This document shows, piece after piece, positions 17,472 to 27,069 of a stretch of DNA of 35,412 nucleotides. Below the pieces are notes generated by a model that worked only from the letters and a program-made list of their open reading frames with translations, did not search any database and was not told the DNA's origin. Numbering within the stretch: the first letter of the stretch is position 1; each line of letters starts with the position of its first letter. The position numbers and the translations under genes are program-made. Source of the stretch: Patescibacteria group bacterium (lineage in GTDB: Bacteria; Patescibacteriota; Minisyncoccia; Phycocordibacterales; UBA5272). The stretch is taken from the NCBI GenBank assembly GCA_030916895.1, contig JAUPVR010000006.1, forward strand, positions 1 through 35,412. The letters are read 5' to 3'.

Positions 17472-18086
17472 ATGTCAAAACCATCACACCCAAAGAAAGA
17501 ACTTTCTTATGTCATGATAAAGCCTGACGGTATTCAGCGTTCACTTGTTGGAGAAATTATTAAACGCATTGAGCGTACCGGTCTTAAGATTATCGCGCTT
17601 AAGATGTTTGTCCCGACAGAAGAGCAGTGCTGGACGCATTACAATAAGGATGATGCATGGTTTACAAGTAAAGGAGAAAGAACGGTTGAATTCCGTAAAA
17701 AATCAGGTCTTCCTGTTGAGAAAGAGGCGATTGAGTATGGTAAGGACATTGTTCGTGCGCTCATCAAGTACATGACAAGTGGTCCAGTCGTTGGATTTGT
17801 TGTTGAAGGAAATTCTTCTGTTACGGTGGTGAAGAAACTTGTTGGCGGAACCGAACCAGCAACATCTGATGTTGGTACGATTCGTGGTGATTACACAATT
17901 GATACCTATTCAATTTGTGATGTCGACGGCCGAGCGGTGAGGAATCTTATTCACTGTACTGATGGTGACCAAACGGAAGCACAGCGAGAAATTGCTATTT
18001 GGTTTAAACCAGAAGAAATTACCAACTATCGACTCGTTCAGGAAGAAATTCTATACGACGTGGACCTAGATGGAATCTTGGAGTAG
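17472..18086 (+). CDS. ndk: nucleoside diphosphate kinase with an internal insertion
   Basis: Transfers the gamma-phosphate between nucleoside di- and triphosphates, and would convert dTDP to dTTP for the thymidylate genes at 1-3.3 kb. Conserved parts are SYVMIKPDGIQR, GEIIKRIERTGLKIIALKM, SGPVVGFVVEG, the loop GTIRGDY and the active-site His161 in NLIHCTDG. The protein has 204 residues against about 140 usually. Most of the excess is an insertion after HYNKDDAWF (about 60-100), in the Kpn-loop/helix region, and the C-terminal EITNYRLV part is normal. Enlarged Ndk proteins of this kind may be a lineage trait. Confidence 0.93.
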   Translation: MSKPSHPKKELSYVMIKPDGIQRSLVGEIIKRIERTGLKIIALKMFVPTEEQCWTHYNKDDAWFTSKGERTVEFRKKSGLPVEKEAIEYGKDIVRALIKYMTSGPVVGFVVEGNSSVTVVKKLVGGTEPATSDVGTIRGDYTIDTYSICDVDGRAVRNLIHCTDGDQTEAQREIAIWFKPEEITNYRLVQEEILYDVDLDGILE

Positions 18087-19171: not shown

Positions 19172-19199
19172 TTGCATTTAGAAAAAACAGGGATATAAT
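19172..19199 (+). promoter_or_regulatory. promoter of the structured RNA
   Basis: TTGCAT (19172-19177), a 16-nt spacer and a perfect TATAAT (19194-19199). Seven nt later is GGG at 19207, the first paired base of the RNA. Confidence 0.7.
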
Positions 19200-19206
19200 A
19201 AAAGTA

Positions 19207-19372
19207 GGGTGTTCGGCAAATTTTTCTGGATACCTCATCTTTGGGTTATGGAATATTGCACGGCTCGCTGAGGCGTCCGTCGTTTCCCACCCACCTGACT
19301 TCAATGATCAGGAAGATGATACCGAATACCCGCGTAAGGAACCGATCCTCTAGGGAATCGGTTTTTTGCTTC
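19207..19372 (+). ncRNA. structured non-coding RNA with a perfect three-way junction, unidentified
   Basis: The 292-nt gap between the DUF805 gene and the next gene encodes an RNA with its own promoter and terminator. P1 is GGGTGTTCGG / CCGAATACCC (19207-19216, 19322-19331). P2 is TCATCTT / AAGATGA (19235-19241, 19313-19319). P3 is TGGGT..GGAA / TTCC..ACCCA (19242-19253, 19284-19293), capped by ACGG..CGC-TGAG-GCG..CCGT. P4 is CCTGA / TCAGG (19294-19298, 19308-19312). P2, P3 and P4 abut without a single unpaired base at the junction. An 18-nt one-sided bulge (19217-19234) lies between P1 and P2. I do not recognise the family. A small hairpin on the 3' side recalls 6S RNA, but the size and junction do not fit well. 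Confidence 0.7.
19341..19368 (+). terminator. terminator of the structured RNA
   Basis: ACCGAT-CC / GG-ATCGGT hairpin followed by TTTTTTGC, 9 nt after the closing stem P1. Confidence 0.8.
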
Positions 19373-19393: not shown

Positions 19394-19402
19394 TGGTATA
19401 CT
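19394..19402 (+). promoter_or_regulatory. extended -10 promoter of the 19410 gene
   Basis: TGG-TATACT ends 7 nt before ATG 19410. It is independent of the upstream RNA, whose terminator lies between. Confidence 0.6.
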
Positions 19403-19409
19403 AAAATGT

Positions 19410-19778
19410 ATGTCTAGGATTATATATTCACTTATCTTTTTAGCGACCCTCTTTCTTGTTTCTCGTTTTGTTTTTGAGCCAGCAAATCTCTACTACGAAT
19501 TGAAGTGGCTTGATATACCGATGCACGTTCTTGGTGGTTTAGGTATCGGCGCGCTTGGATATGCTGTGTTTACCTATCGTCAAAAAAGCATCTCTTTTTT
19601 TAGTTTGTTTTTAATGTTTGCTCTTGTGACTCTTGTGTGGGAGGGGTATGAGTTTTTGCGAGGCGTCATGGATTACAATGAACTTTCTGATTATGTAGAT
19701 ACGGTATTTGATACCATAAACGGCGCGCTTGGTGTTTACATTTCACACTTTTTAGCGACTAGTAGCAAGGAAAAATAA
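19410..19778 (+). CDS. small integral membrane protein
   Basis: A 122-residue protein with an N-terminal hydrophobic helix (about 4-22) and at least two more (about 42-58 and 64-82). The pattern DIPMHVLGGLGIGALG, WEGYEFLRG, DTVFDTINGALGVY places Asp, His, Glu and Asn in positions reminiscent of YjdF/DUF2238-like membrane proteins. That resemblance is weak and was not tested. No Shine-Dalgarno site is present. It may share a transcript with the RNase gene 24 nt downstream. Confidence 0.75.
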   Translation: MSRIIYSLIFLATLFLVSRFVFEPANLYYELKWLDIPMHVLGGLGIGALGYAVFTYRQKSISFFSLFLMFALVTLVWEGYEFLRGVMDYNELSDYVDTVFDTINGALGVYISHFLATSSKEK

Positions 19779-19802: not shown

Positions 19803-21176
19803 ATGTCAACGTGGAAAATTACATTTGCAGGCGGAGCACAAATGCCAACAGGGTCTAATTTTTTAGTGGAACTTGCTGGAAAAAAAATTCTCATCGATTG
19901 TGGTCTAGTACAAGGTGAGAAGTATTCGATTCCCCTTAACCGAGAAGAGTTTGCATACGGTGCAGGAACGGTTGACTTTTTATTTATTACTCACGCACAC
20001 CTTGACCATGTCGGGAGAATCCCGAAACTTGTACGTGATGGATTCAAAGGGAAAATCATAAGTACCGCTCCCACACGAGAGATGGCAGAACTCATCATGC
20101 TCGATTCAATGGGTATCCTTGCTAAAGAAGCGAAACACGAAAACGCTTCACAGTTGTATGAAGAAAAAGATGTATTCGATGCAATGAAGCTCTGGGATAC
20201 CATTATTGAATATCAGAAATCATACACCATAGAAACTGAAAATGGGGCAATCAGTGTTACACCACATGATGCTGGGCATATCTTAGGGAGTACGATGTAC
20301 GTCATTGAGTATCAAGGAAAAAAGGTTGCTTTTACTGGCGATCTTGGTAATACGCCGTCACCGCTTATGAATGATACTGACGGTATTGCAAACATTGATT
20401 ACCTCATCATGGAAAGTGTGTACGGTGATCGTAACCATAAAGATAAAGACAAACGTATTGAAATTTTTAAAGAAGCAGTTACGTCAACCATTAAAAAAGG
20501 GGGCACGGTGCTCATTCCTGCATTTTCTATTGAACGTACCCAAGAAATGCTTTTGGCATTCAATGAGCTTGTGGAGAGTAAGCAAATTCCTGAGGTTCCG
20601 GTGTACCTTGATTCTCCGCTTGGGATTAACATTACTTCAATCTACAAGAAGTATGAGTCGTGGTTTAATGACGACATTAAGAAAATTATAAAATCAGGGG
20701 ATGATATTTTTAATTTTAAAGGACTCATAAAGACCCCTGCTCCGGATGATAGTAAAGCTATTAATCACGATAATCGCCCGAAAGTTATCATTGCTGGTTC
20801 TGGCATGTCAAATGGTGGGAGAATTCTTCACCATGAAGCACGATATCTACCAGACCCAAATTCAACAATTATTATCGCTGGCTATCAAAGCGTCGGCACG
20901 CTTGGTCGCCGTATTGTTGAGAAAGAAAAGGAGGTATATATTCATGGCGAGAAGGTTAAAGTAAATGCGCGCCTTGTAAATATTCACGGTTTTTCTGCAC
21001 ATAAAGACTCTGATCACCTTGTTGAATTTGTTGGGCAGATGGCACCACACCTAAAGAAAGTATTTGTTGTGCTTGGTGAACCAAAGAGTGCATATTTTTT
21101 GGGACAAAAGATTCACGAAGAGTATCAGGTGCCTGTTGTTATCCCAGAGAAGGGTGATATTGTGGAGATTGAGTAA
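19803..21176 (+). CDS. MBL-fold beta-CASP ribonuclease (CPSF73-like)
   Basis: A 457-residue two-zinc hydrolase of the metallo-beta-lactamase/beta-CASP group, probably an RNA-processing or RNA-decay nuclease in the cytoplasm. Motifs in order are the zinc site HAHLDH (64-69), HDAGHILGS, GDLGN, the beta-CASP entry MESVYGDRNH, PAFSIERTQE, GSGMSNGGR, GYQSVGTLGRR, and the final His in GFSAHKD. The length and order match bacterial relatives of archaeal and eukaryotic CPSF73. It lacks the KH domains of archaeal forms and the RNase J C-terminal domain. The exact substrate cannot be told from sequence. Confidence 0.92.
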   Translation: MSTWKITFAGGAQMPTGSNFLVELAGKKILIDCGLVQGEKYSIPLNREEFAYGAGTVDFLFITHAHLDHVGRIPKLVRDGFKGKIISTAPTREMAELIMLDSMGILAKEAKHENASQLYEEKDVFDAMKLWDTIIEYQKSYTIETENGAISVTPHDAGHILGSTMYVIEYQGKKVAFTGDLGNTPSPLMNDTDGIANIDYLIMESVYGDRNHKDKDKRIEIFKEAVTSTIKKGGTVLIPAFSIERTQEMLLAFNELVESKQIPEVPVYLDSPLGINITSIYKKYESWFNDDIKKIIKSGDDIFNFKGLIKTPAPDDSKAINHDNRPKVIIAGSGMSNGGRILHHEARYLPDPNSTIIIAGYQSVGTLGRRIVEKEKEVYIHGEKVKVNARLVNIHGFSAHKDSDHLVEFVGQMAPHLKKVFVVLGEPKSAYFLGQKIHEEYQVPVVIPEKGDIVEIE

Positions 21177-24054: not shown

Positions 24055-24080
24055 CATAGTCACTTCGTTTCTTATTTTTG

Positions 24081-24468
24081 TGGAGATGGGCGGAATCGAA
24101 CCGCCGTGTATTGTCAGGATAACCGCGTGTCTACTGTGCTTAGTTTGCTTCATTTGTAGACAGATACGATAGAAACAAACGAAAGCCGTATCTGCTTAGC
24201 ATCATTACTTCAATTCTCCTATGATGCGGGAAGAGAATCTACACTCATTAGTATATTGCCCAATTACTTCCAAAGAGTATAGAAGTAGTGGACACCAGAT
24301 TGGCTATTTAAGCGAATGCTGGAACAAGTCCGTTTGCCATATATGGTGAACGGATTGCTGTTGCGGATTTATTTGCAACGTGTTTGCAGATGTGTTTTAC
24401 AAGATCACCTACATGCTTGGCACAGCAACACGGTAATCGATGACAATATCGAAACCAATGTCACCCCC
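24081..24468 (-). ncRNA. ssrA: transfer-messenger RNA (tmRNA)
   Basis: The tRNA-like ends pair as 5'-GGGGGTG with CATCTCC-3' plus discriminator A. The T arm GGCGG-TTCGATT-CCGCC is intact, and the 5' region GACATTGGTTTCGAT is typical of tmRNA. CCA is not encoded (the DNA reads CAA). The most likely tag frame ends ...GLVPAFA then TAA and could begin at GCA as ANKSATAIRSPYMANG, a 23-residue tag with a hydrophobic Ala-rich end suited to protease recognition. An alternative GCA-AAC frame ends in LK and is less typical. The 5' end is only 4 nt after the smpB stop codon, so the RNA is probably cut from a shared transcript. Confidence 0.93.
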
Positions 24469-26933: not shown

Positions 26934-27069
26934 TTTAGGCAACGAGGACATTGTCACTAAAGTGCATCCGTAGCTCAGTTGGTAGAGCCGTCGTCTTATA
27001 CACGACTGGTCCCTGGTTCGAGTCCAGGCGGATGCACTTTGGGGATAATGGACGAGTGAACCTAAAATA
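26931..27069. repeat. imperfect inverted repeat bracketing the intact tRNA
   Basis: Left arm 26931-26963 and right arm 27037-27069. Outer part TATTTTAGG pairs with CCTAAAATA. Inner part CATTGTCACTAAAGT pairs with ACTTTGGGGATAATG, with one A-G mismatch and G-T wobbles. It is continuous with the acceptor stem of the tRNA. The middle is poorly paired. Confidence 0.75.
26964..27036 (+). tRNA. tRNA-Ile, anticodon UAU
   Basis: A complete 73-base cloverleaf. The acceptor stem is GCATCCG/CGGATGC, the D arm GCTC-AGTTGGTA-GAGC, the anticodon arm GTCGT-CTTATAC-ACGAC, the variable loop TGGTC, and the T arm CCTGG-TTCGAGT-CCAGG, with discriminator A. The anticodon at 34-36 is TAT, which reads AUA (Ile). 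CCA is not encoded, because CTT follows. Most bacteria read AUA with a CAU anticodon modified by TilS, so UAU is a minority solution. AAAGT/ACTTT extends the acceptor stem by 5 bp into the flanks. Confidence 0.88.

Follow-up and report, generated by a model that had tools for sequence, protein, structure and literature searches.

A very probable, highly divergent 6S RNA next to ndk in a Patescibacterium

Introduction

What is the structured RNA encoded downstream of the nucleoside diphosphate kinase gene (ndk) in the genome of a Patescibacterium? The locus lies in the window analyzed here, a stretch of 35,412 nucleotides, and an initial annotation, made from the sequence itself, had described it as a perfectly stacked three-way junction carrying an 18-nt one-sided bulge, either a divergent 6S RNA or a new class of RNA. 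6S RNA is a general RNA brake on bacterial polymerase. From comparative sequence analysis, we conclude that it is very probably the 6S RNA (SsrS) of this organism, in a highly divergent form. The kind of molecule is known; what is new, within the literature covered, is the lineage, the invisibility to the Rfam 6S model RF00013, the linkage to ndk and the existence of tandem paralogues. No report of 6S RNA in Patescibacteria was found in the open-access literature, subscription journals being mostly outside this coverage. The RNA would be a global transcription regulator for a huge uncultured group, which genome annotation would miss. A covariance model is supplied for finding more 6S RNAs, and the family offers a natural series in which both putative 6S conformations are visible in the sequence.

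Results and Discussion

A structured RNA with a putative promoter and terminator

The structured RNA at 19207-19331 is real. The fold energy of the region 19207-19372 is -63.7 kcal/mol, compared to a mean of -45.1 for shuffled sequences (z = -4.46), and none of 200 shuffles folded as well. The minimum free energy (MFE) fold of the window RNA consists of P1, a one-sided bulge, P2, P3 and P4, plus the terminator hairpin. The coordinates of all elements are given in Table 1.

Table 1. Features of the 6S-like RNA locus and its neighbours (window positions).
Feature	Positions	Strand	Basis and remarks
ndk (nucleoside diphosphate kinase)	17472-18086	+	Pfam NDK, 3.1e-36; conserved upstream neighbour of the RNA
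Promoter	19172-19199	+	putative -35-like TTGCAT 19172-19177; -10 TATAAT 19194-19199
Mature 6S-like RNA core (P1 to P1')	19207-19331	+	folding; R1 match 19205-19333, 119.1 bits; R3 86.7 bits (whole genome)
P1 5' strand, outer closing stem	19207-19216	+	pairs with 19322-19331; both-side changes in 7 of 10 pairs (alignment A6)
Inner closing stem 5' strand, fold B (bulge of the initial annotation)	19219-19229	+	pairs with 19308-19318; RNAalifold
Predicted pRNA template	19219-19229 with 19230-19231	+	5' strand of inner closing stem
Central bubble 5' strand	19230-19242	+	fold B; pRNA start predicted opposite U19231 (cf. U44 of E. coli)
Distal 5' central-bubble strand	19235-19241	+	pairs with 19313-19319 in fold A (P2, central bubble collapse helix)
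P3, terminal stem-loop	19243-19292	+	folds; double changes at 19246/19289 and in the GGAA/TTCC helix
Central bubble 3' strand, conserved CACCTGA	19293-19307	+	motif comparison with genus g44 and other families
P4 of fold A, 3' central-bubble hairpin (CCTGA/TCAGG)	19294-19312	+	fold
Intrinsic terminator hairpin and T tract	19334-19367	+	fold; relatives with other stems and T tracts
Small membrane protein gene	19410-19778		no Pfam match
beta-CASP metallo-beta-lactamase nuclease gene	19803-21176		3' of the RNA

As initially annotated, a TATAAT box precedes the RNA; it ends 8 nt upstream of the first paired base. This -10 box is kept across the genus: in alignment A2 it reads TATAAT in 11 of the 14 genus members (window counted) and TATACT in two, G012 being aligned at TTTACT. 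The terminator was likewise recovered; relatives carry a hairpin and T's 3' of P1, with different stem sequences (alignment examined by eye). The next gene would have a promoter of its own, as had also been proposed: a TATACT at 19397-19402 precedes its ATG at 19410. Simple consensus scans reported neither a promoter nor a terminator at the 19207-19372 RNA, so that both calls come from alignment and folding. A stand-alone transcript, as first suggested, is supported by the -10 box conserved across the genus, by the terminator and by the tandem copies described below, although the surrounding gene order is conserved.

Two mutually exclusive folds

Applied to the genus alignment, RNAalifold paired the bulge with CAGGAAGAUG, which is the 3' strand of P2 plus P4, and did not return the three-way junction (fold A). 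The resulting fold B has a central bubble between a closing stem of about 20 bp and a terminal stem. Folds A and B exclude each other, P1 and P3 being common to both. In 12 of the 14 genus members the MFE structure is of the fold B type; fold A is the MFE in the window RNA, by 0.5 kcal/mol, and in G015, by 1.7 kcal/mol. The energies of the enforced folds are meaningless for L013, which suffers a column shift in alignment A3. The perfectly stacked three-way junction is thus recovered in silico, but it is one of two folds and not the commonest. The bulge had been regarded as the obvious binding site of a ligand or protein; this reading is not supported. In fold B these nucleotides form the 5' side of the closing stem, and they would be better read as the predicted template strand of a pRNA. 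Within this inner closing stem the pair 19219/19318 is A-G in the window. The motif CCCACCTGA/TCAGG is common to the window RNA and genus g44, and a consensus ACCCACCTAG is found in the central-bubble 3' strand of other families.

Homologues and tandem copies

A DNA search of 20 family genomes located the RNA in 14 of 15 genus members, counting the genome that holds the window, and gave no credible match in the remaining genus genome (G008) or in the 5 family members of other genera. A genus-specific pattern retrieved 12 contigs of GTDB genomes, labelled Candidatus Nomurabacteria/Paceibacterota (6), "bacterium" (4), "uncultured bacterium" (1) and "Candidatus Gracilibacteria" (1). Using R1, a model holding P1 and P3 only, together with a pattern search, we reached genus g44, which belongs to another family of the order (G291, G131, G245). 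R1 matches in coding sequence (L044, L045, L046) and pattern matches in G025, G144 and G395 were judged by eye to be chance and were not used.

Among the 14 genus loci scanned, which extend just about 1.5 kb to each side, extra tandem copies are present in G013, G006 and G009. The first two hold two copies each; G009 has two extra ones, hence three 6S-like copies (L004:870-1002, 1171-1294 and 1519-1645) with differing closing-stem sequences. The inner closing stems of tandem copies differ yet still pair, for example UCCAUCUG/CAGAUGGA and CAUGUAUCUG/CAGGUACAUG. Folded singly, each of the divergent tandem paralogues and of the genus g44 RNAs adopts the arrangement of closing stem, bubble and terminal stem, with z values from -3.3 to -6.3.

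Some rows of alignments A4 and A7 are reverse-strand or terminator-palindrome matches. A4 enters no count. Both strands of L057:552-602, as well as L102:1084-1153, L010 minus and L057:1765-1888 minus, were dropped from A7 before the refolding analysis described below. One reverse-strand row (L006:1911-2042 plus) remained in A9 and hence in the model R3.

Covariation

Both folds were examined on an alignment of 17 sequences. In fold B, 91.8% of the cells are paired and 13 pairs show changes on both sides, a level attained by none of 500 shuffles, and controls in which the fold was slid along the alignment had 41-59% of cells paired. For fold A the paired share is 90.7%, again with 13 pairs in which both sides have changed; one of 500 shuffles reached its value on one measure, and all slid controls were exceeded. 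The compensatory changes looked for in the helices of the initial annotation are therefore present, mostly in the shared P1 and P3 (terminal stem), and each fold has some of its own. The inner helix specific to fold B, 19219-19229/19308-19318, has 92.5% of cells paired and double changes in three pairs (A6), and G015 contains a compensatory U-A to A-U change inside it. P2 has two such pairs, and its outer pair alternates between A-U and G-C on A6, being U-A in the window; P4 has one, with 94.1% of cells paired. The succession of closing stem, central bubble and terminal stem that is characteristic of 6S RNA was thus observed with covariation. The conformation associated with pRNA release, i.e. 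a 3' bubble hairpin and/or a collapse helix, is seen as conserved pairs and, with the caveats given below, in refolding.

Searches with 6S models

The two-fold likeness to 6S RNA was a resemblance only, and homology tests were therefore run. The Rfam models proposed with the initial annotation (6S, SRP, riboswitches) gave no match to the window RNA, RF00013 included, and no other Rfam family matched it either, the rows returned being at chance level. Relatives behave differently. On the 98 whole genomes of the order, RF00013 gave 3 matches at E<=1 (G066, 0.0038; G108, 0.054; G037, 0.456), all of them 247-424 nt downstream of ndk and on the ndk strand. On 20 ndk-downstream loci searched with Rfam, RF00013 was the sole family on the RNA strand, in 2 of the 20, at 23.6 bits; the best score of an order relative is 26.0 bits (L117). 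Two further overlaps were discarded: BSR0653 in L117, on the RNA strand, is at chance level (19.2 bits of 627), and ncr1175 in L102 lies on the opposite strand.

These searches were extended to 380 genomes of the phylum with R3, a model built from the RNAs of the order alone and holding no Rfam sequence. At E<=0.05, R3 matched 39 of the 380 genomes, other classes among them. Rfam was run on 20 of these 39 loci and returned RF00013 8 times, at 24.5-41.9 bits, each time coinciding with the R3 match in position and strand and with no hit elsewhere; the top score, from loci of other classes, is 41.9 bits for a cut-off of 46.4. Searched for itself on the 380 genomes, RF00013 gave 31 at E<=0.05 and reached its cut-off in just 4, counted irrespective of R3 loci, and in none of the 98 genomes of the order. 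Four genomes are in both the R3 and the RF00013 lists, and the place agrees in all four. Two models that have no sequence in common thus point to the same loci. Under these strict filters 314 of the 380 genomes are in neither list, some loci of 36-41 bits being missed by the genome-wide RF00013 search. Most genomes are in one list only, which argues that the family is very divergent. R3 did not find E. coli ssrS (L076:484-666), and the link to known 6S RNA therefore runs through intermediates; it is at this level that homology to the Rfam 6S family is proposed.

A new structured RNA class unrelated to 6S had been the other suggestion. In its favour, no Rfam family matches the window RNA, but among the 4227 families tested in 40 loci RF00013 is the only one to recur at the RNA, and the order-wide RF00013 hits fall on it in 3 cases out of 3, so that we regard a new class as exceedingly improbable. 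The guess of a divergent 6S RNA, by comparison, gains strong support from homology via intermediates, from covariation and from the ndk-linked RF00013 hits.

Linkage to ndk and gene neighbourhood

We located ndk in 91 of the 98 genomes of the order. Among 40 ndk-downstream stretches, the model R2 matched on the ndk strand at E<=0.05 in 21 and at 0.05<E<=1 in a further 8, every one again on the ndk strand; two (L089 and L091) gave inconsistent R2 matches only, and 9 had none. Divergent homologues with a 20-22 bp closing stem are thus seen 3' of ndk in many families of the order. All nine R3 hits in order genomes where the place of ndk is known are downstream of it, four of these genomes (G105, G073, G097, G062) being outside the R3 training set. 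In G131, of genus g44, the RNA lies 3' of the apparent end of ndk, as judged by eye. The ndk product of the window is 204 aa long and matches the 135 positions of Pfam NDK in two stretches, and so seems to carry an insert.

The order of genes in the window is ndk, a DUF805 gene, the RNA, the small membrane protein gene and the beta-CASP nuclease gene. Five other loci were compared with the window. As in the window, the small membrane protein gene is found 3' of the RNA in four of them (L112, L110, L007 and L080, not L100), and so is the nuclease gene, also in four (L100, L110, L007 and L080; recognized by eye outside the window). L007, L110 and L080 show a similar membrane protein - nuclease order.

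This neighbourhood bears on the possibility that the RNA is a cis-acting leader or riboswitch acting on the membrane protein gene or the nuclease gene that follows it, in which case the bulge would be the ligand pocket. Both genes recur as just described, and gene order is conserved enough that synteny alone cannot dismiss a cis role. A leader is nevertheless highly improbable: the terminator closes the RNA and a separate -10 box precedes the next ORF; P1 encloses both folds, so that no competition with the terminator is expected from either of them; the RNA occurs in tandem copies; and L100 carries the RNA without the membrane protein gene. A riboswitch in particular was rejected, as no Rfam aptamer matched and both folds lie inside P1, the terminator outside.

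Comparison with known 6S RNAs

The RNA shares with the 6S RNA/SsrS family (RF00013) a long closing stem, a central bubble, a terminal stem, a 3' bubble hairpin and, as predicted, a promoter of its own, and its relatives have sub-threshold RF00013 matches at the same loci. It differs by its size (a core of about 125 nt, compared to the 187 positions of the Rfam model), by the absence of a match for the window RNA, by its place beside ndk and by the divergent tandem copies of some relatives.

In B. subtilis 6S-1 RNA, according to the passages cited from PMC8876501, pRNA synthesis induces a 3' central-bubble hairpin and a central bubble collapse helix, the latter formed by the distal 5' central-bubble strand with the 3' strand of the bubble-adjacent stem; E. 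coli-type 6S RNAs have a longer 3' hairpin. Fold A of the window RNA holds both elements described in these passages. Its sequence is different, and a collapse helix of 6-7 bp together with a hairpin of 5 bp makes a three-way junction tight to the nucleotide. The CACCUUGA...UCAAGG 3' bubble hairpin of E. coli ssrS resembles the CACCUGA...UCAGG of the window, and the two RNAs also have in common a GAU context at the pRNA start, which we take to be U44 in E. coli; R3 has no match to ssrS.

Ms1 of Actinobacteria is structurally related to 6S RNA and binds core polymerase, according to PMC9130861. An RNA of this type, a 6S relative that binds sigma-free core RNA polymerase and is not released by pRNA synthesis, would have the same overall shape as the window RNA, and Ms1 was compared solely through the Rfam library. 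Binding to core polymerase is the point in which Ms1 would differ. RF00013 matches relatives at the same loci, and both the closed stem and the collapse partners are conserved, which an RNA that is not released would not need. An Ms1-like RNA thus appears very improbable.

Refolding and predicted pRNA

For the preferred reading as a 6S RNA, release from polymerase was imitated by keeping 12 template-strand bases unpaired, sequences with shuffled bubbles being used as controls. For the 65 RNAs scored out of 69 (4 were skipped, the motif used by the script being missing), mean z was -2.04; 34 were in the best 5% and 59 beat the median. The freed strand was 64% paired, compared to 44% in the controls. 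Genus members are non-independent, and leaving out the 20 rows of A5 gave 19 of 45 in the best 5%. The window row was weak (z = -1.23), because the script had mis-placed its template: the template was positioned by a best-duplex rule which overshoots into the bubble in several rows, the window's included.

Copied from U19231 backwards, the predicted pRNA of the window would be 5'-AUCCAGAAAAAUUU-3'. Its predicted 5' end is AUCCAGAA, and that of other families AUCUAGAU. The predicted start contexts are GGAU/ACC in the window, GGAU/AAA in relatives and AGAU/UAAA in other families, the E. coli counterpart being CCGAU44/AUUUC.

By analogy with 6S biology, the RNA in fold B would mimic an open promoter and occupy the sigma70-RNA polymerase; a sigma70 factor is encoded in the same genome. 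When nucleotides are plentiful, the polymerase would copy the 5' strand from U19231. The pRNA would sequester the bulge strand, the freed 3' strand would collapse into P2 and P4, i.e. the three-way junction, and the collapsed RNA would leave the polymerase. Holoenzyme binding, a pRNA start at U19231 and NTP-dependent release are what we infer from this analogy. It is conceivable, if rather unlikely, that the 6S RNA of the order is a direct NTP sensor, placed beside ndk because NTPs set both the task of ndk and polymerase escape, with tandem copies whose different templates would each suit a different NTP or sigma condition. For host-dependent Patescibacteria, NTPs may be something to be taken up from outside.

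Other RNA genes in the window and genome

Other stable RNAs were also considered. SRP RNA was rejected as a candidate: RF00169, the small bacterial SRP RNA, matches neither the window RNA nor any place in the whole genome (G000), even at E<=10, and the SRP RNA of this genome may have diverged as far as its 6S RNA. RNase P RNA was rejected because the genome has its own copy elsewhere (G000:C29); this class A RNA scores 95.8 bits, just below the 100-bit cut-off. In two genomes of other classes, the RNA found by R3 and the gene for RNase P RNA are about 1 kb apart (L121:2578-2920 and L127:206-548). The window also contains a tRNA at 26964-27037 with the anticodon TAT, which is uncommon in bacteria and is labelled Ile by ARAGORN. 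A tmRNA at 24078-24468 on the minus strand, absent from the ARAGORN output, was identified by Rfam with 106.8 bits, about 5 kb from the 6S-like RNA.
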